From Trichomonas tenax (Eukaryota; Parabasalia; Trichomonadida; Trichomonadidae), in the NCBI GenBank assembly GCA_023091735.1, contig JALKBU010000102.1:21513-85512 (forward strand): 64,000 nt of DNA, in the 5' to 3' direction. Numbering within the stretch: the first letter of the stretch is position 1; every line of letters begins with the position of its first letter. The translations under genes and the position numbers were made by a program. Below the pieces are notes generated by a model that saw only the letters and a program-made list of their open reading frames with translations, had not been told where the DNA came from and did no database searches. Shown in pieces: positions 4,118 through 34,232 of this stretch.

Positions 4118-4708
4118 TCATTTTTCATCAGGAATTTGATCAGCTTTGTATAAATCTGAAACATTGTGACCAAGAATTTCGTCTCTGATCTTGTTCAAAA
4201 CATCTATTCTTTGATCAAGGATCTTATCTAAGACTTCTGTGTTTTCATGAATTTTATCAAATGCAGCGTTTATCATTTTAGAAAAGTTTTCGTAAACATC
4301 TTCGGTATAGTCCACCTCGTTGAGTGCATCGTCCATTGTGACGAGAATCGAAGGATCCAAATAAGATTCTTGTGCGAATGTTCTGTGAAGTTCATCATCG
4401 AGCTCATCAAAAGTTTTTAGCCAATCTTTGTCCTTTTCTGTATAATTATCGTCATCAGCCTTAAAACCAAATTCTTTTTCGCATTCTTTAACTAATCTCT
4501 CTGATTTCTTCCAGATATCTTCGTTATCCGGTTCCTTCTTCTGCGAGCGCTGACTCGCTGGCGCTGAATTCGTTGGTGATTTAGGCGTTAAATTTCGTTG
4601 CGCTGGCCTCTGTGCTGCTTCTTTGTTGATCGACGCGCTGCTGTCCTTCTTCTTCAGTTGTGGCAGTTTGGAAGGACCGTCTACACGCGGAGGTTTTCCT
4701 GTTCGCAT
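4118..4708 (-). CDS. Hypothetical 196-residue charged protein
   Basis: Starts at ATG 4708 and ends at a TGA 142 bases from the convergent V-ATPase gene. Residues 1-60 are basic and Ser/Pro/Gln-rich, probably disordered. The rest is acidic and helical (KSERLVKECEKEFGF, KMINAAFDKIHENTEVLDKI), compatible with a short coiled coil near the C terminus. There is no signal peptide or membrane segment. I do not recognise the family. Upstream lies a TTTACACGTCA motif (about 4740-4750) shared with other promoters here, and a TGTCAGTTTTT that could act as Inr. Confidence 0.7.
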   Translation of the reverse strand: MRTGKPPRVDGPSKLPQLKKKDSSASINKEAAQRPAQRNLTPKSPTNSAPASQRSQKKEPDNEDIWKKSERLVKECEKEFGFKADDDNYTEKDKDWLKTFDELDDELHRTFAQESYLDPSILVTMDDALNEVDYTEDVYENFSKMINAAFDKIHENTEVLDKILDQRIDVLNKIRDEILGHNVSDLYKADQIPDEK

Positions 4709-4990: not shown

Positions 4991-7708
4991 TCAAGCGAAC
5001 TTATAAATGAACAGTTCTCTGAGTTCTTTCTCGTCCATATCTCTGCGGTGTTCTTGCTCTAAGAGCTTTATCCAGTCCTTTGAGCTCTGGTTCCCAATGA
5101 GTTCGTTGAGAACACCAATCTGAACAGCTCCGCAGAAGTTCCTGACAATGAATGCAGAGTCGATTTTCTCCTTTGAAAGTTCGAGATATTTTAGAACGAC
5201 AGGACGAGTTATTTCAAGTATTCGTGGAGAAATAATCTTTGGTTTTTGACCAGCAATGCTTAAAACAGCCTTGCCGAGGTCTGTGCGTGAAACGAATTTC
5301 GGCAAGTTATCAACGGATGCTTCTTCTCCCATATAGCTGATGGCGAGAATCGAGTACATCATTCGTGCTGATGCTTTAACAACGAATCTGTTGCCAGCAA
5401 CTAAACTTCCTAAAGCAGAGGCTTTGCAGATAATAGAAACATTGTCTTTCGTGATAATCTCAAACTCGCCACCAATGCCAAGAAGGATAACGAGAAATGC
5501 AAATAAATCTTCATGCACGAGATTTGGAATCAATTTTAAGATGGCTGAATGTATTCTGTTGTTATCTAAAATAAAGCGTCTCAAGAATGGAATGTACGGA
5601 GAATAGTAACTAGATATGAAGCTGACATTTACCTCTTGTAATTTGTTCATAAGACCGAAAGAATCAATAACTCTGTTAATTGATTCTTCGTCATTTGATC
5701 GATCTAAAATCATCTTCATATCACACTTGATTATCGACTCAACAACTGAAGGATCGAAGCCAGAGATCTCTGTTTCGCGGAAAGTAACTGATTCACCGAG
5801 ATATGCTGCAATGTTGTCATTAATATGAATGATGGTATCCGGAAATACATCTGAAAGATCCCTCAAAACATTAGTTGCGGGAATGCTGAATCGAAAATCG
5901 ATTTGTTGAATCGTTTGCTTGTAACCAATGAAATCAACTAAGTATTTTGCGATTGATGAGAGATTCTCTATTGTGTCGAGCTCTTCTGCTTTGATGGAAT
6001 TAAAGTTGACACGCATTGTTTCATGGAAAACGTAAAACAAAACTTGAAGCTGAGGATTCTCCATTGCAGGTTTGTTTGTGTTTGGATCATGAACAGTACA
6101 CAACGAAATAATCTCATATGGCTTCATTTCTGATATGTGACAGCCGATTTCAAGCCAAATCAATCTGTAAAACTTGAAATCCAGGCAAAGTTCGAAAAAC
6201 AGTTTGAAATCCTCGAAATTAGAATAAACAGATTTCTCTGGGATGATTATTCCTGTATATGAGTAAAATGCGAAGTCATAGATATGATTAAAAGCAAGTT
6301 CATAGAGGCGCTCTGTGAACTTACCAATACGACGCGTTATAACTTCCTTCATCATGTATACAATGTCTGTTTTTAGGATCTTATACGCTTTCTGGTTATT
6401 CTTTCCTGAGAATGCGATGAAATCACAAATTGGTGAAGGCTTCTCTTGGTGTTGGTTAAAGACATTGATCAGAGCCGTGTTCTTCAAGTTCCTCCAGAAA
6501 TCACTGAATTTTCTCTTGATTTGCGGAAAACTTGTATCAGGTTTTTCATTGAGATTGCTTGGAAGTCCAAATTCACGAATCTGCTTTGGAAGAATCGTTA
6601 TCTTTGTTTGGAACAAAGATAACACGATGTTAATGATATCCACGCGAATTACTTCTTCACCATTCGCAATTCCTCCTTTGCATTGATTAAATCCTCCATA
6701 TAAATACAAATATTCATTCATGACAAAAGATGAGTGATAAGCAACATTTTTGACGCCTTTAACAACAACTCTTGCGGACAATCCACTGTCTGGATCAACT
6801 ATAGTGAGAAGGAGGTCTTGAAATACATCTGCATCCATCTCTAAGTGAAAATCTTTTTTGCCAATTAACTCGTTATTAAGATTTAATTTTTGACCGCCAG
6901 CGATAATAATTCTCGGTCCAATGCCTGGAACATCGATGACATTCATTGTCGTTCCATGCTGTGGATGGACTTCTGGGAGATTATAACTCTCCCATTTTGG
7001 TAATTTTTTATTTCCAACTCTTAAGTAATATAACTTTCGTGGTGTTTTGGTTTCTTTTGTTGTGTAGCCTCCATAAACGAAGATTCTGCCGTTGTAATAA
7101 ACCATTGAATGACCCCAGCGTGGTTTTAATTTATTTTCTGTAGAAAAGAGTGTCCATGTGGCTGTTAGTGCACTCCAACCCCAAACGTCCTGGAAAAGCT
7201 CTGTCTGATATTTTCCACCCGCTACAACCCACATAATCGAGCGATCTGGATCCCAAGCAGCAGAATGGAAAACGCGACCTGCAGGACCAATAAAAGTCTT
7301 TGGGTAAGCGATTGTAACGACTGATTTTTGATTGATTCCAAATTGATGTCTTAAAACGAAATTTCCAAAATATATCGAATTGTCCTCAGAGAAATCTGAA
7401 TAGCAGCCCCCAAAAACGAACGCTGTATCGTATTCTGGCGCAAAAACGCAAGTTGATCCAATATAAAACGAATCTTCAAGTTCTGAGCGCTCAAACTTCG
7501 GTTCTCCATCCTCCATGCTAAATTTAACGAAAGCGTAGAAGCTATTTTTCTCTTTCGAAAGTTTTTTTGATTGGTATTCTTTAAAATCGAAGCCGCCGAG
7601 GGCATAGAGTTTTCCAAGGTGGCCAACGCAGCACCCGGCGACTTGGTCGATGCCGACGCTGACTTTGTACGACGTCGCAAAGTCTGTTCCGACTTCGCGT
7701 GAAGTCAT
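4991..7708 (-). CDS. Kelch-repeat protein, 905 residues
   Basis: The N-terminal about 360 residues carry five or six kelch-type beta-propeller blades: LYALGGFDFKEY, AFVFGGCYSDF, WVVAGGKYQTEL, RWGHSMVYYNGRIFVYGGY, RIIIAGGQ and YLYLYGGFNQCKGG, each with the Gly-Gly pair. Spaced Tyr and Trp residues follow in several blades. The remaining about 540 residues are helical with no domain I can name; they have no clear BTB or BACK signature. The frame is open to 7777 but that codon is TTG. I chose ATG 7708 because TCATTTATTTTTTTG stands directly before it, giving a 13-base leader. Upstream of that, ATG 7759 would add a hydrophobic stretch (FVNTYSFVSFIFLM) and cannot be fully excluded as a signal peptide. 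The inferred role is a protein-binding scaffold. Confidence 0.85.
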   Translation of the reverse strand: MTSREVGTDFATSYKVSVGIDQVAGCCVGHLGKLYALGGFDFKEYQSKKLSKEKNSFYAFVKFSMEDGEPKFERSELEDSFYIGSTCVFAPEYDTAFVFGGCYSDFSEDNSIYFGNFVLRHQFGINQKSVVTIAYPKTFIGPAGRVFHSAAWDPDRSIMWVVAGGKYQTELFQDVWGWSALTATWTLFSTENKLKPRWGHSMVYYNGRIFVYGGYTTKETKTPRKLYYLRVGNKKLPKWESYNLPEVHPQHGTTMNVIDVPGIGPRIIIAGGQKLNLNNELIGKKDFHLEMDADVFQDLLLTIVDPDSGLSARVVVKGVKNVAYHSSFVMNEYLYLYGGFNQCKGGIANGEEVIRVDIINIVLSLFQTKITILPKQIREFGLPSNLNEKPDTSFPQIKRKFSDFWRNLKNTALINVFNQHQEKPSPICDFIAFSGKNNQKAYKILKTDIVYMMKEVITRRIGKFTERLYELAFNHIYDFAFYSYTGIIIPEKSVYSNFEDFKLFFELCLDFKFYRLIWLEIGCHISEMKPYEIISLCTVHDPNTNKPAMENPQLQVLFYVFHETMRVNFNSIKAEELDTIENLSSIAKYLVDFIGYKQTIQQIDFRFSIPATNVLRDLSDVFPDTIIHINDNIAAYLGESVTFRETEISGFDPSVVESIIKCDMKMILDRSNDEESINRVIDSFGLMNKLQEVNVSFISSYYSPYIPFLRRFILDNNRIHSAILKLIPNLVHEDLFAFLVILLGIGGEFEIITKDNVSIICKASALGSLVAGNRFVVKASARMMYSILAISYMGEEASVDNLPKFVSRTDLGKAVLSIAGQKPKIISPRILEITRPVVLKYLELSKEKIDSAFIVRNFCGAVQIGVLNELIGNQSSKDWIKLLEQEHRRDMDEKELRELFIYKFA

Positions 7709-24093: not shown

Positions 24094-27000
24094 TTATTGC
24101 TGTTCAGGTTCTGGGAAGTATTTCAAGAGAGTTCTCCACTTTGGATTTGCAAACTTAACAGCAAACTTACGAAGCTGTGCCGGTGCTGTTGGTGACTTTG
24201 CAATAACATCTGCAATAACTTTCAAATCTGTTCCATAGAAGTATTTTTCGATCCATCTGGTGCTTGCAATTTCATCACCGAATCCTGGCGATGGTCCAAT
24301 AGCAAGAATGGCGTTGAATATGTGCTTCATTGATATTGCTTTAGCCTTGTGGTCTTGCATCGATCTCAGGAGTTCCTCAAGTACAGGGAGAACTTTGGAT
24401 TTGAGAATAGGAAGACACTCTTCTATCTCTGCTGCTTGGATATAGACATTCATGACACCTTCTGTGTATTCTGGGTGAGCGTGGAAGTCTTCGAAGTATC
24501 TGTTGATGATACTAAGTGCAGAAGAGCCGACTGCTTTCATGAGCGTGATGACAACTTCGCTGGCAGCGATTCTCACTTCGCTGTGCTTGCAGTAAATGAA
24601 CAAGTTGCAAAGAGGGAGATTGCAAAGTTCTTTGACGAGATTGGCACAGACTTGCGGACGCTCGATGAGAGTTTCGTTTGCCTTGCGAAGGAGTTTAGTG
24701 CCGTTCTTTCCGTCGACTGTGAATGGAGCGAATGTCATCGAGAACTGTGCTGCCTCCTGGAAGAGCGAATCATCTTTGCTGCCAATGAAGTAGTCCATCA
24801 AATCAGTCGCTGGCGTAGAGAAAGCAAGTCTCGTGAAGCAGTTATAGTCGTTTTCTTGGTGGACGTAATCGAGGAGTTCCTTCGGAACTGTGACGGGCTT
24901 CTGTGGTTCGCTGTCATAGAAGAGAATGAAAGCACTCCACGTTCCTTTCTCGCCGCTGCCGATAGACAAAACTTGTTGAAGAGTGACTTGCTTGACAATG
25001 TTATCGTTGAAGCACTGCCATGTTCCGTTTGGCTGAAGGCAATAAGAGATGTAGTGACCGAAGTCAGCTGTGCCTGAGTGCATAATGACGCCAGCGAGTT
25101 TGTAGTCCTTGCCTGCAAGTGAGAGCTCTTCTGGGAACGAGAGTGGTGTCTTAACTTTATACCTTATGAATGTCTCGAAGTTGTACTCGAAGCGCTTGAG
25201 CTGGATGATTAAGTTCTTCGGTGGATCTCCGAACTTGCAGAACTTCTTAGCATCAACTTTCTTGTCTGTGCCTTCGAATTTGTAGGCATTCTCGCCTTTG
25301 AGGAAATCTGGTGTTGAGATCTTCTTAAGGCTCTCATCGAGAGTCCTTGAGTGGAGGACATCAACTGGCAGAGCGATATATGTCTCGGATGATTCAGAGC
25401 TCAATGATCCATCAAGAGATTCGATCCTGTTAATGAACTGGCCATTGAATATCGAAAGTTTCTCCTTTCCAAGGATTCTTTCAAGCTTATCAAGAAGGAG
25501 CTGAAGGAACTCGCATGCATCTTGTTGGACGTTTGTATCTAAGACATCATCGCCATCATCGGACCACTCATTCAAGAGTGCTTGTGTTGAGACTGATTGT
25601 TGGTTAGATAACATCATTTGTGCGAACAAATACTTCAGGCGCTTCACGAACCTGTTCTTCTCCTTGTAGTCGAAAACAGCCTGCCTAATCTCGCTGATTC
25701 TGAATAACTGCTGAAGAACAGAGTCGACGAAACATGCGACACCGAGGTTGTCCAAACCAACGTAGCCACCGCTCTTTTGGAGCACAATCTTGTCACCATC
25801 GATATCCCACTCCTTGAAGTAGCTCTTGCTGCAGAGATAGTGAAGTGCTGAGACGATCTTTGGTCCTTTGAGGTGCTTTGCGACGTTCATTGCTGAAGTG
25901 AAGATTTCTTTACCTTTAGCTTCAGCGCGTGGATCCAAGAAGTTGTTGCAGATGAATTCCGTGATCTTCTCGATCTCTTCGTCTGTCATTGCGTGGAATT
26001 CGAGCAATGCATCAAGCAAATCCAAGTGTCCAGATGAAACAGATTCTGGTGTGAGATTATCCATAACGATCTTCACTGCTGTCTCATCGCGAGTTGTGAT
26101 GTGATCGGACCAGCTTGAGAAGAAGTGATCTCTGGTGATATCAACTTCGCTGCTGAGTTCTGCGTAAACAGATGATGGGATATTAAGCTTCTCAAAGAAC
26201 ATACACGAATCAAAGGCGATATATTCGATTGGTGACGCGAGGAACTTGAGAATTAAAGATTTGATTTTCTCAACATCAAATATAAGTGAGCGTGGATCGT
26301 TAAAGTTGTGGACTGTGTCGAAAGCATTTCTGAAAAGTTTGGAAGGAGAATCGCCAACAGGGAAATTCCTCAATATTCTAACAATTTGGTCGAATAATAT
26401 CTGTTCATTGATTCCAATGTCAACACCATTCTCTAAAATGTTCTGGAGCCATGAAATAATGTTTTGGAGAAGGATTGGGTCCGTGTTATCGAGGCCAACA
26501 GTCAATATATATTCAAACAAGCCAACTTGCTTAAGTGAATCAACATCTTTGATCTTGAATGCTTGAATGAATGTATCGAAGTTATACTTGAAGAATGCCG
26601 GCCTTGCCTTAGGGAATATCTTGCTCAGCTCCATTGACTTAATCTTGCCCATGATATCGACTAAGTCGTCATGTGTAGGAAGCTCATCGAGAAGTTCAAC
26701 GATTCCTGGAATTTCGTCCATAAGTCTGATGAGCTTTGTCTGCATCTTGAGATCAACGATCATCAGTGATGGAATTGCTGTACGCTCTCTGATCTCTGGA
26801 CACTTTCCACCCATAACAATAACATCAACTGTCTCGAAGCTATCGAATGCGGATAATGTCTTATCAAATTCAACAGGGAACTCTTCATGCTCCAATTGGC
26901 ACTCTGTGTAAAGTATATTGAACTGGTCTGCAATAAGCTGTGTGAGCGCTGCAACACTGATTGTTCTGGCTGTTGTAATTGTGATCTCTTCATCCTGATA

Positions 27001-29037
27001 TGAAGCATTGATTGTAATTGTCTCAGATTCTCTGACTTCTTTATGCCTTATTAATCCATATTTAGTAGGAACAACATCCTTTTCACACGTCTTGACAAAT
27101 GTCGTCAATAACTTAGCATAAGCGTTCCTCAGCCTGAATTCTGTTTCATGAGTGAATCTCTCATTCCATCTCGTTAAGAAAATGTTAATCATGTCTTCAT
27201 CAGCAAGATATATTTCGCTATTTCTGCAATAAATGCGAGAGAGAAGTCTCATGAATCTTTCTTGAACAACAGAGTAGCGTAATGACAATGACCAAAGTAA
27301 GTCTTCATTCCTGAATGGAAGTGTTGTAATCTCGAAAGCACCGCTTGGATTTGTTGGATCGTTCTTGAACGAGAAAAATGCCTTTTTGATGAACATGTAG
27401 AACTTGGGGTTGATCTTGCATTCTGGGAGTTTCTCGATGATTGAAATAACAAGATCCTGCTTAATAATATATCTTTCGATTAACATTGTGATGAAATTAA
27501 GCAAACTCTGCGAATTCATTGAGCTTTCAAGAAGCATACTCACATCGTTATTAGTAAACTGTGCGCCATTGTATGTTGTTAAAACATGTATTAATGAAAC
27601 ACAGCTCTGTGCGAACATAGGATTCTTGGTGATAGAAGCAACAACAAGTGTCAGTAATTTGTCAGCGAGATCTTGTTCGATGATTTTCTTTGAAGGAAGA
27701 AGAGAAACGAAAATCATAAGATCGAGACGTGACAATTCTGGTAAATTAGACATTTCTGTCAACTTTGCAGTAATTTGTTCCTGAGTTAAACCAATGCAGC
27801 TCAAATATTCTGCTAATTCTGCAATTTGTTGCTGATTTTCACCTTCTTGTTGAGCTAACTGATTAATATGTTCACGGACAAGATTAATAGCTTCAATCTG
27901 ATTACCGCGGTGTCCTAAGCCCGTGCAAATCTGCTTTAATAAGTTAATCCAAGCTTCATTCTTTTCAGGAAAGTCAAGAATCAAATTGATGCAGTCATTA
28001 ATCAATTCCAGCCTCATAGTGGAGAAAACTTCGACAATTAAATAATAAAATTGAGTAATCGATGAAGATTGATGAATTGAATGTTGCGACCAGATCGCTT
28101 TGAAGTTATCAAGAGTGAGAAGTTCGGCATGAGAGAACGATTTGAATAGTTCTGCGAAGATCGGAAGAAATGCAGATTTATATTCAATATGATAAAGATA
28201 ATCAGCAAATTTTGTCTCTTTAAGCCACTTGAACATGTACGGAGCGAACTTTGGTTGATTGCAGTTTGCGTGTAAATATTTTAAGAAGAATAATTGTTTG
28301 TCGAAAAATTCTGACTTGATTTGATCAGAAATGAATTCAAACAGTTGGAAAGCCCTTTCGTCGGTTAGTTTGTCTGTAAACGTTAATCCTAAAAATGTGT
28401 TATTGATAAAATCAGCAAGTTGTTCAGAAGCTGCGTTACGATTCTTATGTAGCTGCAGCAGTGTCACTTTATCAACGATCTGCTTGAAAATTTGATTTAA
28501 TTTCTCATCAGGTGCTCCTGTTGTCGCTAATGGAACAAAATAGAAGAAAATGGCGCAGCGCATAAAGTTCAGTGGTAGTTCGTATTCAGCATCCAATTCT
28601 TTAAATAATTCGGTCAAAATATCCGAGTTTACATACTCCTTGCATATTTCGATGAAAAATTCGCGATTATTGAAGTATATCATATATCCTGGATTGAAAA
28701 TATAATATGGGAAAAATTCGATGTAAAACTGTGGGCATGATGTTGCAATTTTGAAGAGTTTGAAGATTATATTAAAATAATCTTTGATAATTTTTTTGTC
28801 AAGATCACTTATTAATCTTGTTTTGACGATTTCTCCGCACATCGATGCCAATGATTCAAAAAATTTTTCTTGTCTCATTCCCGTTCTCGTAGGCAGAAAA
28901 TGATTCTCGCAAATGTAATTGATGAGATCCAAAAAATCCTCCATATATTCCTGCATTGTTGAAAGATGATGCACAGAATAAAAGAACTCACTCGACCACT
29001 TTGCAAATGTTTCTGGAGTCCAAAATCTAGTTTGCAT
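24094..29037 (-). CDS. Giant ubiquitin carboxyl-terminal hydrolase (C19/USP family)
   Basis: A 1647-residue protein. The Cys box GLDNLGVACFVDSVLQQLF is at about residue 1102 and the His box SGTADFGHYISYCLQPNGTW at about 1328, with the following Asn/Asp motif FNDN. The first about 1090 residues are an alpha-helical solenoid, with a ubiquitin-like stretch around residues 675-720 (ETITINASYQDEEITITT). A helical C-terminal region of about 300 residues follows. This architecture resembles the USP9X/USP24/USP34 group rather than small USPs. Start ATG 29037, with AAAAAGTGACATA immediately upstream. The upstream side opens onto the hairpin-rich gene-free tract. Confidence 0.93.
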   Translation of the reverse strand: MQTRFWTPETFAKWSSEFFYSVHHLSTMQEYMEDFLDLINYICENHFLPTRTGMRQEKFFESLASMCGEIVKTRLISDLDKKIIKDYFNIIFKLFKIATSCPQFYIEFFPYYIFNPGYMIYFNNREFFIEICKEYVNSDILTELFKELDAEYELPLNFMRCAIFFYFVPLATTGAPDEKLNQIFKQIVDKVTLLQLHKNRNAASEQLADFINNTFLGLTFTDKLTDERAFQLFEFISDQIKSEFFDKQLFFLKYLHANCNQPKFAPYMFKWLKETKFADYLYHIEYKSAFLPIFAELFKSFSHAELLTLDNFKAIWSQHSIHQSSSITQFYYLIVEVFSTMRLELINDCINLILDFPEKNEAWINLLKQICTGLGHRGNQIEAINLVREHINQLAQQEGENQQQIAELAEYLSCIGLTQEQITAKLTEMSNLPELSRLDLMIFVSLLPSKKIIEQDLADKLLTLVVASITKNPMFAQSCVSLIHVLTTYNGAQFTNNDVSMLLESSMNSQSLLNFITMLIERYIIKQDLVISIIEKLPECKINPKFYMFIKKAFFSFKNDPTNPSGAFEITTLPFRNEDLLWSLSLRYSVVQERFMRLLSRIYCRNSEIYLADEDMINIFLTRWNERFTHETEFRLRNAYAKLLTTFVKTCEKDVVPTKYGLIRHKEVRESETITINASYQDEEITITTARTISVAALTQLIADQFNILYTECQLEHEEFPVEFDKTLSAFDSFETVDVIVMGGKCPEIRERTAIPSLMIVDLKMQTKLIRLMDEIPGIVELLDELPTHDDLVDIMGKIKSMELSKIFPKARPAFFKYNFDTFIQAFKIKDVDSLKQVGLFEYILTVGLDNTDPILLQNIISWLQNILENGVDIGINEQILFDQIVRILRNFPVGDSPSKLFRNAFDTVHNFNDPRSLIFDVEKIKSLILKFLASPIEYIAFDSCMFFEKLNIPSSVYAELSSEVDITRDHFFSSWSDHITTRDETAVKIVMDNLTPESVSSGHLDLLDALLEFHAMTDEEIEKITEFICNNFLDPRAEAKGKEIFTSAMNVAKHLKGPKIVSALHYLCSKSYFKEWDIDGDKIVLQKSGGYVGLDNLGVACFVDSVLQQLFRISEIRQAVFDYKEKNRFVKRLKYLFAQMMLSNQQSVSTQALLNEWSDDGDDVLDTNVQQDACEFLQLLLDKLERILGKEKLSIFNGQFINRIESLDGSLSSESSETYIALPVDVLHSRTLDESLKKISTPDFLKGENAYKFEGTDKKVDAKKFCKFGDPPKNLIIQLKRFEYNFETFIRYKVKTPLSFPEELSLAGKDYKLAGVIMHSGTADFGHYISYCLQPNGTWQCFNDNIVKQVTLQQVLSIGSGEKGTWSAFILFYDSEPQKPVTVPKELLDYVHQENDYNCFTRLAFSTPATDLMDYFIGSKDDSLFQEAAQFSMTFAPFTVDGKNGTKLLRKANETLIERPQVCANLVKELCNLPLCNLFIYCKHSEVRIAASEVVITLMKAVGSSALSIINRYFEDFHAHPEYTEGVMNVYIQAAEIEECLPILKSKVLPVLEELLRSMQDHKAKAISMKHIFNAILAIGPSPGFGDEIASTRWIEKYFYGTDLKVIADVIAKSPTAPAQLRKFAVKFANPKWRTLLKYFPEPEQQ

Positions 29038-29583
29038 TATGTCACTTTTTAGAGTTTGTCATTTTTTTTGTCAATAGTTTGGAATTCTTGAGTCAATTTT
29101 GAGCCCCGGAAAATTGAATATTTTACAAGACGATACATAAAATACATATGGAGGTAGAGAAAGTTTGTCCTTGATGATGTTCTAACCATCCTCGTCCCTT
29201 CCACAATCACACACTCTGCCTTCTGTCCTACAGCAAAGAACTATCCCGTTTCTTTTCTCGTTTTTCAACGAAAGAAATAATTTCATCACCAAACAAATAC
29301 CATCAAAACAGCCGATTTTCTAGCCTCTTACTGTATATCGAATGGAGAATTGAAATACCACTCCTTATCCTTGCTTTTCTCGTCTAATAAACATTTTTTA
29401 TATAAATAATTTTTTGTAAAGTATTCAATTTGTGATATAATTTTTTCCGGATTTTCAAGAATTTGATGTTCTGTTGTTATGCGAGCCTATTTATGCAATA
29501 AAAATGGCGCGTTGTTTCAGATATTGAAAATGTATACTTAACACAACTTCTTCGATATTCTCGCAATTTCATCATTATCAAGA

Positions 29584-29652
29584 CACCAACAGTCAACAAG
29601 CCATTGGATACGAAGAATAGCTTCGTATCCAATGGCTTGTTGACTGTTGGTG
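29584..29652. repeat. IR1: perfect 32-bp hairpin
   Basis: Arms 29584-29615 and 29621-29652 are exact reverse complements with a 5-base loop (AATAG). The arm begins CACCAACAGTCAACAAGCC. This is the only perfect stem of the cluster. Confidence 0.95.
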
Positions 29653-29717
29653 CCATCGAAATTTGCTCAGAGCGTTCTGATTCGATTTCATTTTACAATT
29701 CAACATTTTTTTACGGA

Positions 29718-29762
29718 TCTCTGAGGTTGCTAAGACGCAGAATGGCCTAGCAATCACAGAGA
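29718..29762. repeat. IR2: 17-bp imperfect hairpin
   Basis: Arms 29718-29734 (TCTCTGAGGTTGCTAAG) and 29746-29762 pair with two mismatches and one G-U. Loop 11 bases. Confidence 0.8.
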
Positions 29763-29815
29763 CTTGTAGAAAATGCTATGAATCGAAATATTTCATTCAT
29801 CGATTTACATTACTT

Positions 29816-29890
29816 GCTTTAGCTGTCTAATAGCATGACAAACAGATAGCTTGTGTACACATGTTTGTCATACTATTAGACAGCTAAAGC
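29816..29890. repeat. IR3: 29-bp hairpin, one mismatch
   Basis: Arms 29816-29844 and 29862-29890; the single mismatch (C-A) is at position 19 of the arm. Loop 17 bases. The outer arm reads GCTTTAGCTGTCTAATAG. Confidence 0.93.
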
Positions 29891-29918
29891 GATTTACGAT
29901 TTATAATTATCCGTTAAT

Positions 29919-30018
29919 ATAAATCATCAAAAATGATCAATTTCTGGCACAAATTCACCATATATTCGATGTTCTAGAGAGTTTATACTAGAAATTGATC
30001 ATTTTTGATGATATTTAT
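29919..30018. repeat. IR4: ~27-bp hairpin with 2-base bulge
   Basis: Arms 29919-29945 and 29990-30018. A perfect 21-bp inner stem is followed by a 2-base bulge and 6 more pairs. Loop about 44 bases. Confidence 0.9.
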
Positions 30019-31310
30019 TGATTTTGGACAAATTATCTACAGCAGGCACAAGCTAACACGAAAATTACATCTACAGTGGCGGGATATTGGAGGAATACCC
30101 TACATAATTAAGTATAGCGATTAACTAAATTTCTAGATTGAATATTGTCAATTGACCTGCTTCTTGTCCATTTCTTCTAATGCAGACATGTAGATGGCGG
30201 TATTTGATTGTATAAATAAGAAGATTAAATAAAAGTCATTGATTTTGCAATAATTTTATTGTATGGGATAATTATAATATCAATATATGTAAATCAATAC
30301 GATTTAAAATGAGAAAAAGTTGTGACACTTTTCTTTACAATGCAAAATTAAATATAAAAATAAATATCATAAATATAATATACATCAATTATAACATAAA
30401 TTTATGAGAGAAAAAATTTGAGAATAAGTAACATTGAGAGTAATGATAGAAATAAAAATAAATAATCAAATACTATAGTACATGATTCAAAAGATATATT
30501 AATTATGTTTTAAAGTAGAAATAAAGTGATTTTTAACTAGTCAACATATTCCCAGAAATTATACAAATATTAGAATTACACAATAATGTAGTAAATAGCT
30601 TTTGAATGCTCTGAAAAATGTCTCAGAAATATTGAATGACATAAAACAACAATATAATCAATAAACAAAATGTAATACAAATAACACATTTCGCAATTGC
30701 TGTCTCAATATATTCTATGAGTCAGATTATTGTATAGTTTACACGCAAATACAAACATATTTATAACGATATAATAAGCCTATTTATATTGCAGCTGTTT
30801 ACTTTTCAAAATTTGAAAAGACTCAGAAATGTAATATGCATTGTATGAAATGTATGTTATATGTGCAACAATATACTTTCCAACTTTAAAACAGTCACTT
30901 TTTTGCACTTTATTTTCTTTTGCATTTTCAGGCACTTCTGATTGATATATTCGAAGATTGACGATACGATATATTACAATATACGCTACCGAATATATGT
31001 CTACAATAACTAACTATAATATCCACGTTTTATTTTCATTATATTTATCCTGCTTAATATATGTTTTTTATATGTTTATTAGCATTTACTACATGATTTG
31101 AATTTGAATAGACAGTAGAAATATTTTTCCAACTTTAAACTTGATATGTGTCAAAAAATTATTTTACACGTCATGTATTATATTTTACACGCCAATCTGT
31201 CAAAAATATTAAATTCTCTATATTTTAACATAACAATGACTCTAATACGTTGTCTATTATGGTCCTATAGCAATTGGCTTTATAAACATATAAATATTAA
31301 TTTCCATTTG

Positions 31311-31411
31311 CAATATCTTTGTTATCTAGTCATCTCCACGGTGATTAAGTCACATATCATGTTGTTTTGCGGCTTCCACACTGTGAAGATGACTAGATAA
31401 CGAAGATATTG
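31311..31411. repeat. IR5: 29-bp hairpin, one mismatch
   Basis: Arms 31311-31339 and 31383-31411 differ by one G-U and one C-A. Loop 43 bases. The core TTATCTAGTCATCT is fully paired. Confidence 0.93.
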
Positions 31412-31432
31412 ACCACATTTCGAAAATCACTC

Positions 31433-31505
31433 CGAGTGTATGTGATATAGCGATGCTGATGTGGAAATCGATACCACACCACCATCATTATATGACCTAC
31501 ACCCG
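31433..31505. repeat. IR6: 32-bp imperfect hairpin
   Basis: Arms 31433-31464 and 31474-31505 align over 32 positions with six mismatches and one G-U. Loop 9 bases. It starts only 22 bases after IR5 ends. Confidence 0.8.
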
Positions 31506-31541
31506 GAAAAACATTCTAGGCAGATAATTTAATGCATTTTA

Positions 31542-31638
31542 TAAAATTAGGTTTTCCGTCCTGCTCTCGCTGCAAAGGTCGCTAATAGGGTTTCTGAGAG
31601 GAATTTGCCACCAAGGAAGCCCGTAAAACCTATATTTT
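31542..31638. repeat. IR7: long, poorly paired hairpin
   Basis: TAGGTTTT (31548-31555) pairs with AAAACCTA (31625-31632). Pairing continues inward over about 29 positions with about nine mismatches, and outward through an AAAAT/ATTTT pair after a 1-base bulge. It is the weakest of the long stems. Confidence 0.55.
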
Positions 31639-31720
31639 TGAATGTTCTACATTTTTATACGAGATCAATCAGTCTTGTTTTATTAGATATTTAGATATTT
31701 TTTTAAATCATAAAATCTTC

Positions 31721-31797
31721 TCCACTGAATGCAAATGGTACGCTAGAACTGGATCAATGTAATCACTAGTCCTAGTGCACCATTTGCATTCGGTGAA
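31721..31797. repeat. IR8: 29-bp hairpin
   Basis: Arms 31721-31749 and 31769-31797 share a perfect 13-bp core (GAATGCAAATGGT). There are five differences, all transitions: two G-U and three A-C. Loop 19 bases. Confidence 0.92.
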
Positions 31798-31846
31798 ATA
31801 GAAAGTTTGAGTGAAATTTGATCATTGATTTTCATCATATTATTAT

Positions 31847-31917
31847 ATCCCCATATTCTCAGCGATAGTGTCACTCACACATGTGATAGGTGACATTGTC
31901 ACTGAGAATATTGGAAT
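31847..31917. repeat. IR9: 27-bp hairpin
   Basis: Arms 31847-31873 and 31891-31917 with a perfect ATATTCTCAG core. There are five differences, of which two are G-U. The 17-base loop contains the palindrome CACATGTG. Confidence 0.9.
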
Positions 31918-32080
31918 AGAACAACTACTACTATGTTTTTTTTAGAATTGGGTTCAAAAATAGTAAATAACATTGATTATAATATGATAATGATTGAAGT
32001 GAGGCCTGCGAAATGATAGGAATGTTAAAAACTCTTTCAAATCATAATCAAATTCGAGATATTTTCACAACTTCTTATTT

Positions 32081-32147
32081 TAGTCTTCTTCTCCATACAA
32101 ATGTCACCGCTAGCATGATTCAGTGACATGTATACCAAGAAGATGAT
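32081..32147. repeat. IR10: hairpin with internal loop
   Basis: Inner stem ATAC-ATGTCAC with a 1-base bulge, a small internal loop, then a 7-bp TCTTCTT/AAGAAGA stem. Arms lie within 32081-32107 and 32123-32147. Terminal loop 15 bases. Confidence 0.75.
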
Positions 32148-32170
32148 AAAAACAACAAGTTTTGTTGGTG

Positions 32171-32270
32171 ATTCATGTTTCTCCAACAACTGTGTGCCAA
32201 TAGCACATTAAGGCTTGAAAAATCTAATAAAAAGACCACATATACCATTGGCACATAGTGATGGATGAAT
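32171..32270. repeat. IR11: hairpin with 15-bp upper and 6-bp lower stem
   Basis: Upper arms 32189-32203 (ACTGTGTGCCAATAG) and 32245-32259 pair with one G-U and one mismatch. ATTCAT at 32171 pairs with ATGAAT at 32265. Loop about 41 bases. Confidence 0.8.
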
Positions 32271-32304
32271 TTTTATCAGGTAATTTACATTGATTTATAT
32301 AATA

Positions 32305-32390
32305 TTGTGTTTGAGTCCTTCTTCTCGTTATTGGAGCCACTACATACATGTACAATGACTGAAGAACCGATGAGGAGGACCCAAACACAA
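32305..32390. repeat. IR12: 28-bp imperfect hairpin
   Basis: Arms 32305-32332 and 32363-32390 align over 28 positions with four mismatches and three G-U. Loop 30 bases. Confidence 0.85.
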
Positions 32391-32531
32391 CAATTGGACG
32401 AGTTTTGATTTTTCATCCCACCAGATGGCGGTTGAACAATGAAACTTAAAAAATGTGATAGCAATTTGCACTGCATTATTTCTCCAAAGTATTGGCGGAT
32501 ATTAATTTCTATATTCTGGGTCGATTTTGAA

Positions 32532-32622
32532 ATGTTGTTCTATGCACTCCAAATTGATTAAGAAGCCAATAGAAATGTGTGTCATTGACTTCTGAATCGA
32601 TTTGGAGTGCATAGGACAATAT
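32532..32622. repeat. IR13: 39-bp hairpin, the longest stem
   Basis: Arms 32532-32570 and 32584-32622 align over 39 positions with only two mismatches and three G-U. Loop 13 bases. The core CTATGCACTCCAAAT is perfect. Confidence 0.94.
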
Positions 32623-33008
32623 TTTCACTGTTTTTCATGTTTTCACACTACCAAACATGGAACACATTTGAGACTTTGATGTTGCGATAAAAGTGTGCTA
32701 TATAACTCAGATACACAACATTCGATGTGAGACTGTCTTGTGAATATATTACACTATGTAATCTTTGAGATATATACATTATATTAGCAAGAAAATCATA
32801 CATTATTGACTCCTTAGAATGTCAATTTTGTTGACACTATATCAACATGGAACACATTCAATTTCACTAACAGAGGCATGAAACAATTAAAAACCCATCT
32901 GCAGTATATGTGATAGGCATTGTGGATGACAAAATATAAAAAACACAAATTTTCGAAATAATGTAATATTTCATAAAAATTTAAAGTTCAAAATCTGTTA
33001 ATGTTCAC

Positions 33009-33061
33009 ATCGAATTCATATAACAAAGCTTATGTAAAACACAAGCACATATGAATTCAAT
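33009..33061. repeat. IR14: 13-bp hairpin
   Basis: Arms 33009-33021 (ATCGAATTCATAT) and 33049-33061 pair with one mismatch. Loop 27 bases. A small AACCTA/TAGGTT stem follows at about 33067. Confidence 0.75.
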
Positions 33062-33437
33062 CTTCAAACCTAAAATATAGGTTTAATCTCATAACGACAT
33101 TTTTAAATTATTGTGTTTACGCTATTTAATCAATGGATCAATAATATAAACATCTAACCAATTACAACATTATTGTTGAATACCTTCAATTCCATAATTC
33201 TTTAAAACATTCAATTAATTAAACTTTACTAATTCATGAGCTTTCAGTAACAACATCGCTAGACTATACCTAGACATTTCGCTAATGAGTAAAGGTCTAT
33301 AATAGCTTTCATCAAAATTTTGCTTTTAGCCTTAAAAATTTGGCGAAAAAAAGACGATAGACTAAATTTGGAGAGCTCTCGTTTTTTCTCAATTATGAAA
33401 TATGAGCTAACCTTATATGCTTAGAAAGATATCGATG

Positions 33438-34232
33438 TCATTCTTCAGCACCAACGAGGCTATAGAACTCTATCATTGTGCGGATCTTGGGTTTCTTAGC
33501 GAACACTTCCTTAATCTTATTTTCTTTATGCGGCATTACCTTCATAACAAATGTCATTAGGAAGTGTGTGAAGCTTTCTACGGTTTCATCTTCTTCATCG
33601 GAGTGAAATAAACGCATAACAACGGCATTAATTATGTTAATAAAATGCATTTTCATTGTATGCAAACTCGGATAATATTCGTTGAGAACTTTCTGTATTA
33701 AGCCATCCAATTCACGCGTATTCGAATTTTCTATCATTTTGATCAATGTTGGAATATCAGTTCTTGTCTTTGAATATGTTTTCTTTGGTTGTTTAGGTGT
33801 GCTTTGTGGTTTTTCAGGGATTTCTGGTGGATTTTCTTCAATAACTTGTGGAATTTCGTTATCTGAAGTTTCCAAAAACGCAGAAATATCATCATCAGTA
33901 ATCTCTGTTTGTGTGATGTCTTCTTCAGTTTCTTTTGGCTCCGAAATGGTTTCTTTCCTGCTTTTCTGTTGTTTTTGTTTTGTCTTATTATTTTTATTGA
34001 GCAAATCGATCTGATTCTTCAAATTGCTAATTTCGGTTTCAGAAAGTTGAAGCTTCGTTTCTAATAATTGGTTTTTCTGGCTTAAGATGTCGATTTTCTT
34101 TTCATATTCGGCTAATCGTTGTTTTAAACCCGTAATTTCTCTCTTTAGTTGGACATTTTCCCTTGTGTCATGCAAAGAGGATGATAAATCCCCACGTAAA
34201 GAACTGATTAACTGTTGAAAATCAACTTCCAT
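33438..34232 (-). CDS. Coiled-coil protein, 264 residues
   Basis: Starts at ATG 34232 and ends TGA. Residues about 22-90 are a strong coiled coil (REITGLKQRLAEYEKKIDILSQKNQLLETKL). An acidic, Pro-rich disordered linker (about 95-160) follows. The C-terminal about 100 residues form a helical domain (IPTLIKMIENSNTRELDGLIQKVLNEYYPSLH). There are no membrane segments. Family not recognised; a cytoskeletal or centrosomal adaptor would fit the layout. Upstream are a TTTACATGTCA motif and TTTGACAAT within 30 bases of the start, the same pair seen before several other genes here. Confidence 0.75.
   Translation of the reverse strand: MEVDFQQLISSLRGDLSSSLHDTRENVQLKREITGLKQRLAEYEKKIDILSQKNQLLETKLQLSETEISNLKNQIDLLNKNNKTKQKQQKSRKETISEPKETEEDITQTEITDDDISAFLETSDNEIPQVIEENPPEIPEKPQSTPKQPKKTYSKTRTDIPTLIKMIENSNTRELDGLIQKVLNEYYPSLHTMKMHFINIINAVVMRLFHSDEEDETVESFTHFLMTFVMKVMPHKENKIKEVFAKKPKIRTMIEFYSLVGAEE

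Follow-up and report, generated by a model that had tools for sequence, protein, structure and literature searches.

A dispersed noncoding repeat bearing runs of unrelated hairpins in Trichomonas tenax, a possible source of small RNAs

Results

A hairpin-rich tract between two genes

The DNA analysed here (the window) is a stretch of 64,000 nucleotides from the parabasalid Trichomonas tenax (GenBank assembly GCA_023091735.1, contig JALKBU010000102.1). Between a minus-strand ubiquitin-peptidase gene (24094–29037; Pfam UCH) and a minus-strand open reading frame (ORF) without a convincing Pfam family (33438–34232) it contains a tract, 29038–33437, in which there is no ORF of at least 100 amino acids, and a coding origin was rejected on that ground. 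The tract carries a cluster of hairpins and represents a worn copy of a noncoding repeat that is dispersed through the genome and bears such hairpins in runs. A preliminary description, made from the sequence alone, had already called the tract gene-free. Neither a match to Rfam above the gathering score nor a tRNA was found anywhere in the window, and both identities were rejected for the tract. A kinase that the window also encodes is 45% identical to its nearest named relatives, which come from Tritrichomonas foetus and Histomonas meleagridis.

Hairpins were detected by three methods, one measure being a strand-symmetric pairing score, which treats both strands alike. Twelve hairpins with a score of at least 45 lie inside 29538–33100 (3.56 kb), nine of them scoring 52 or more, while the 59.5 kb that make up the rest of the window contain eight at the same threshold, with a top score of at most 51. 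In 200 dinucleotide shuffles of the tract, made in blocks of 600 bp, such hairpins numbered 0.2 on average and never more than 2, and the six strongest places in 100-nt sliding folds over the 64 kb all fall in the tract. The preliminary description had counted at least fourteen hairpins. The cluster itself is real, but only twelve stand clearly above background; a chance origin is rejected by the shuffles for these but may apply to h7 and h14 of the window copy. The possibility, raised in the same description, that such a density might be usual in intergenic DNA finds no parallel in the rest of the window, a comparison made within the window, and its best hairpin (perfect over 32 bp at 29584–29652) and its longest one (32532–32622) were both recovered (Table 1).

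The hairpins are about 80–125 nt long and arranged in runs. Eight of the 11 start-to-start steps between adjacent hairpins within two runs measure 93–137 bases and the other three 177–226. They are mutually unrelated, as had been claimed: a self-BLAST of 29538–33380 revealed no similarity among them, each of the eight non-trivial hits aligning a hairpin onto itself. What had escaped the preliminary description is that the tract is a copy of a repeat and that its AT-rich middle lacks hairpins at the threshold used here.

One worn copy of a dispersed repeat

Genome-wide searches covered the 53.4-Mb assembly. Hairpin h1, in the left part of the repeat, is found at at least 40 places (40 scored of 50 candidates), 80–100% identical in the better orientation, and all 40 places inspected (the window and 39 fetched) carry the adjoining module-A sequence; three places that match h1 only in part are broken copies. 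The right half occurs at at least 40 places as well (40 scored of 58 candidates), and 11 of 15 other scored places stop within one base of 33380. The left ends vary between copies, from about 450 bp past the window junction down to close by it, and several copies contain in this extension (up to ~450 bp further left) an extra hairpin, h0, which is absent from the window copy. In most subfamilies h0 is preceded, as judged by eye, by GTACGTTATAAA or a motif close to it. The repeat middle, 30032–31300, is matched in the longer copies L008, L013, L014 and L019, with L014 lacking about 160 bp of it. The order and spacing of the hairpins are preserved between the copies compared. Module-A units also occur head to head, 407–490 bases apart, in L026, L027, L035 and L038. 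In being dispersed, multi-copy and noncoding, the repeat resembles a miniature inverted-repeat transposable element (MITE) or another non-autonomous DNA transposon.

A similar tail motif, AAATTTGG.GAAAAAA..GACGATA, is present at about 4440–4480 of locus L033 and at 33330–33380 of the window, near the ends of different units.

Table 1 Features of the hairpin-array repeat in the window
Feature	Position	Evidence or remark
Window copy of the hairpin-array repeat	29542–33380	left end truncated; right end ...GAGAGCTCTC common to most copies
Hairpin h1	29562–29674	core 29584–29652 with 32-bp perfect arms; fold, score; compensatory pairs in A1
Hairpin h2	29690–29789	score, A1 alignment
Hairpin h3	29814–29892	strongest covariation: both partners changed at 17 of 31 pairs in A1
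Hairpin h4	29907–30031	fold, score
AT-rich middle of the repeat	30032–31300	no hairpin scoring ≥45
Hairpin h5	31301–31425	fold, score, family consensus
Hairpin h6	31431–31507	score, family consensus
Candidate hairpin h7	31526–31653	window score 40, background level; 49 in family consensus
Hairpin h8	31703–31821	fold, score, family consensus
Hairpin h9	31840–31924	fold, score, family consensus
Shorter unit of the repeat (h10–h13)	31964–32988	12 of 40 scored right-half places begin at 31964
Hairpin h10	32066–32164	score, family consensus
Hairpin h11	32179–32269	fold, score
Hairpin h12	32303–32392	fold, score
Hairpin h13	32528–32627	40 Watson–Crick pairs, 4 wobble-type pairs, 1 mismatch
Candidate hairpin h14	32992–33061	background level: 31 for the enclosing 32971–33094

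Pairing is kept by compensatory change

In at least three of the hairpins, compensatory changes preserved the pairing within the lineages from which the subfamilies arose. These changes were followed in two alignments: A1, composed of 46 module-A copies (L022, L048 and L051–L053 are not in it), and A2, restricted to h3 (34 of 45 h3 stretches). The copies were grouped by eye into 11 subfamilies, five of which are single-copy (S6a, S6b, S1d, S7 and S8). Changes were placed by Fitch parsimony on one FastTree tree of 45 tips, from which L010 was left out, using 10 draws for the repair and arm counts, 20 for internal wobble, 10 and 3 for the counts of terminal wobble and substitution spectra, and one each for the listing of repairs and the slid controls. 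"Dead" and "long" terminal branches are our own labels.

When the window structure is imposed on h1–h3 in A1, 78.4% of 5450 cells are paired, compared with 32.9–38.0% after sliding the partners by 1–3 columns; since one of the aligned sequences supplied the structure, the unslid count is at an advantage. Both sides have changed at 52 of the 121 pairs, amounting to 245 such cells versus 110.7 ± 9.0 in shuffles, which ignore relatedness (0 of 500). Further pair types in A1 are not clearly more numerous than in the shuffles (135 versus 132.1). For h3 in A2, there are 66 both-sided cells versus 25.6 after shuffling, and its arms exchange A–U, G–C and U–A, or G–C and C–G, jointly. A consensus fold made without guidance retrieved no more than parts of these two hairpins, h1 and h3, with 17 pairs, of which 10 had changed on both sides. 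The signal arises between subfamilies, since copies that are mostly close to one another show few double changes (27 of ~4700 cells).

On internal branches, 66.8 of 102.1 changes from an unpaired state restored a Watson–Crick pair (65%; slid controls, 29–33%), and on terminal branches 66.0 of 122.7 did so (54%; slid controls, 34–38%). The terminal branches of multi-copy subfamilies show an equal excess of C>T and G>A in stems and spacers; in the stems on internal branches, A>G and T>C gains are about as frequent as C>T and G>A. We read these branch patterns as those of source lineages that appear to have been selected, with copies that are mostly dead, the window copy itself having probably ceased to function.

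For 10 of the 12 hairpins the fold of the family consensus is more stable than that of the window copy; the exceptions are h1, whose window form is the more stable one, and h3, for which the two are about the same (consensus depth was 8 copies for module B and 16 for subfamily S1). Two extra places that contain an h5-like arm proved to be diverged h5–h6 clusters in which both hairpins are retained. The compensatory test proper covers h1–h3; h5 and h6 were followed in these two diverged copies, and the other hairpins were compared in 4–13 close copies.

Among otherwise alike copies, the loop of h1 (29616–29620 in the window; also in L009 and L013) reads either AATAG or CTATT. Since the loop is found in both orientations, arm-to-arm inversion happens at this hairpin.

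Argonaute and RNase III frames in the assembly

One Argonaute frame was found (L055:199–2652, contig C599). It encodes 817 amino acids, is Piwi-type, with PAZ and Piwi matches and ArgoN below the cut-off, and resembles Siwi most closely among proteins of solved structure. The one RNase III frame found (L054:696–3047, contig C203) encodes 783 amino acids with two RNase III domains, and its relatives of solved structure include Drosha, the Giardia Dicer and bacterial RNase III. At the level of genes, the genome thus appears to encode what a locus for endogenous small interfering RNAs (siRNAs) or hairpin RNAs would depend on, an Argonaute together with a putative Dicer-type protein.

Discussion

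An array of possible small-RNA precursors

Our tentative preference, held with somewhat less than even confidence, is that the hairpin arrays are diced into small RNAs and are carried by a mobile-like repeat. Source copies would be transcribed into a long RNA, the double RNase III protein would release small duplexes from its hairpins, and these would be loaded by the Piwi-type Argonaute; the resulting small RNAs would act through loose pairing or on the repeat family itself. The element would then be a mobile-like carrier of hairpin-RNA precursors, either of endogenous siRNAs or microRNA-like. We infer that the array functions at the RNA level, small-RNA production being the likeliest function. 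The preliminary description had compared the tract to a microRNA-like locus or a small-RNA nursery. The compensatory change in h1–h3 and the presence of genes for both proteins agree with that idea in part, but the tract is a member of a dispersed repeat and not a unique nursery.

Selection on the hairpins as RNA is weakly supported. If RNA folding is selected, G·U should exceed A·C on the transcribed strand. Read on the plus strand, the 11 subfamily consensuses contain 133 A·C pairs, equivalent to G·U in a minus-strand RNA, versus 58 G·T (naive p 6e-8, the consensuses having shared ancestry), and the long terminal branches show 47 A·C versus 21 G·T. A clear transcribed strand seemed a promising outcome in the subfamily consensuses and was weakened by the tree-based and module-consensus counts given below, so that wobble suggests a weak lean toward a minus-strand RNA.

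A number of observations count against the production of small RNAs from these hairpins. In the consensuses of modules A and B the wobble pairs are balanced (34 G·T versus 39 A·C, p 0.64); on internal branches the bias is modest (28.8 G·T versus 41.1 A·C); presumed dead copies lean the same way (45 versus 58), and the wobble of h0 leans to the opposite strand. No arm of h1–h3 is preferentially conserved, either on internal branches (113 versus 139 changes, p 0.12) or in dead (106 versus 132) and long (96 versus 99) terminal branches, and all 64 genome-wide hits of an h13 arm with at most two mismatches fall at places already listed for the family. In this respect, features of canonical microRNAs were looked for and not seen: beside the even arms of h1–h3 and the want of a near-perfect match to the h13 arm outside the family, the wobble strand bias is uneven. 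Pair repair exceeds the slid controls on terminal branches too, to which parsimony reversion artefacts may add, and on internal branches the excess of C>T and G>A is smaller in the spacers, too, than in dead copies; the spacers shift part way, and therefore part of the substitution shift on internal branches is not stem-specific. The flips of the h1 loop reveal that DNA-level processes are active there. As for the proteins, three positions that we take to be catalytic are changed in the alignment of the Argonaute with Siwi (D to S, D to E and H to G), and slicing is doubtful because of these changes; no helicase or PAZ match to Pfam was found in the RNase III protein.

Matches to single arms were considered as candidate targets and rejected, the three partial h1 places being broken copies and two h5-arm places diverged family copies. 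The h5 arm has 58 hits genome-wide, and the two extra places fetched among them are these diverged copies.

Explanations at the level of DNA

The hairpins might instead belong to a non-autonomous DNA element in which single-stranded or cruciform forms are needed for copying or excision and are selected in the copies that still move, with no small RNA involved. We regard this as somewhat unlikely, even though the repeat behaves as a mobile one in its many copies, shared right end, variable left ends and head-to-head pairs, and both the two orientations of the h1 loop and consensus wobble counts without a clear strand would fit. Neither a terminal inverted repeat nor a target-site duplication was recognised by eye in the six copies displayed; no shared partner gene or transposase was found when L017 and L014 were compared with the other 10-kb loci, common stretches of 150 bp or more being confined to the repeat itself and a 340-bp repeat; and the wobble lean of the subfamily consensuses is not accounted for. 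To our knowledge, no element requires a dozen internal unrelated hairpins, which we also count against this explanation.

The loop flips would be expected as well if the hairpins were a functionless by-product of replication template switching or of arm-to-arm conversion, which would both make and correct palindromes. The preliminary description had offered template switching as its alternative, and repairs do cluster somewhat on one arm: neighbouring repairs fall on the same arm more often than on opposite arms (29.7 versus 19.6; within five columns, 11.1 versus 6.3), and in one patch, columns 64–68, all repair was on the 5′ arm. Opposite arms nevertheless account for about 40% of neighbouring repairs, and the repairs listed are mostly scattered single sites. 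Such a process also leaves unexplained why the hairpins hold their positions in copies merely 63–80% alike, and why no hairpin in the rest of the window is as strong as nine of the twelve in the tract; we consider it unlikely. Far less probable still is a chance nesting of separate hairpin MITEs in one gene-free tract. Each hairpin taken singly does resemble a short palindromic element, and a dispersed repeat of about 340 bp adjoins the tract, but the module-A sequence next to h1 at all 40 scored places, by which single-hairpin MITEs are rejected for h1, and the order and spacing of the hairpins, preserved between the copies compared, speak against it.

Relation to known systems

Made1 contains one short palindrome per element, whereas a single element of the repeat described here bears a dozen hairpins that are unrelated to one another and show compensatory change from subfamily to subfamily. 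In both cases a noncoding repeat is scattered in copies that form hairpins, possible small-RNA precursors in the present one, as outlined for the other in the available text on Made1 and hsa-mir-548 (PMC1784062). In its runs of 80–125-nt hairpins the repeat is similar to the clustered (polycistronic) primary microRNA transcripts and hairpin-RNA loci treated in the accessible part of a re-analysis of fungal hairpins (PMC9757828), but it differs from polycistronic transcripts in having tens of copies and no preferentially conserved arm in h1–h3. Repeat-derived hairpins as possible small-RNA sources also recall the plant microRNA genes domesticated from transposable elements, as presented in the portion available of PMC3086885, from which both host and architecture differ.

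Closer to hand, Trichomonas vaginalis is likewise a parabasalid with Argonaute(s) and an RNase III protein (PMC7844918, PMC7845603). According to the available text of these papers, it has 34-nt small RNAs and Piwi-like Argonautes (PMC7845603), and its microRNAs are very rare, at 0.0046% of the data, with their status contested (PMC7844918). Dispersed hairpin arrays with covariation are not described in the sections at hand for the microRNAs proposed in T. vaginalis (PMC7844918, PMC7845603). For Tritrichomonas foetus, the accessible main text of the genome paper gives unclassified repeats as ~16% of the genome and uses the word "hairpin" 0 times (PMC11415386). A limited search of partly available literature yielded no description of such hairpin arrays.

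The repeat may be a source of small regulatory RNAs that has so far gone unrecognised. The existence of true microRNAs or other hairpin-derived small RNAs in trichomonads is contested, as stated in the available text of PMC7844918, and loci with covariation and within-family controls make this question directly testable on a handful of repeat families. Should the hairpins be diced, a protist would have spread small-RNA genes through repeat amplification; should they not be, they would offer a striking case of DNA whose many hairpins are selected or correct themselves. In either event, a dispersed repeat with many hairpins, the testable ones having evolved by compensation, is more interesting than the cluster first reported.

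A wider proposal, which we regard as rather doubtful, is that hairpin-array elements are mobile noncoding genes that make up a large class in parabasalids of this lineage, with several families, each numbering tens of copies. Coding for no protein, they would supply strings of unrelated Dicer substrates from source copies selected for their hairpins, forming a self-spreading repertoire of small RNAs whose processing machinery would be minimal: the double RNase III protein together with a Piwi-type, probably non-slicing, Argonaute.

Further hairpin families and adjoining repeats

Near the right end of one copy of the repeat, at L014:6800–7300 (contig C1087), there is a three-hairpin cluster that shows no similarity to the tract of the window. 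This family is itself dispersed and recurs at no fewer than 40 places (67 candidates, 40 of them scored), the majority 71–83% identical; many of these places have opposite-strand self-matches of their own hairpins, and one copy is on the window's own contig (C44:6957–7297). Because a second dispersed hairpin family exists, hairpin arrays look like a class in this genome, the families examined being few.

Strong folds were also noticed elsewhere. A two-hairpin cluster at L021:1924–2200, for which no similarity to the window tract was found, has a first stem of about 50 bp that is nearly perfect by eye. Locus L013 contains a 44-bp perfect palindrome (7552–7595) with a 93-bp inverted repeat nearby, and L009:6001–6820, outside the repeat, shows strong folds at 60–69% G+C, some of them far more stable on one strand.

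Finally, the dispersed repeat of about 340 bp that adjoins the tract is a separate one. It occupies 29111–29452 of the window and occurs at at least 40 places (40 scored of 58 candidates), the others being 86–95% identical to the window copy. Its edges in the window are marked by CCGGAAAA (29106) and TTTTTTCCGG (29450), and because of these it is perhaps a MITE.

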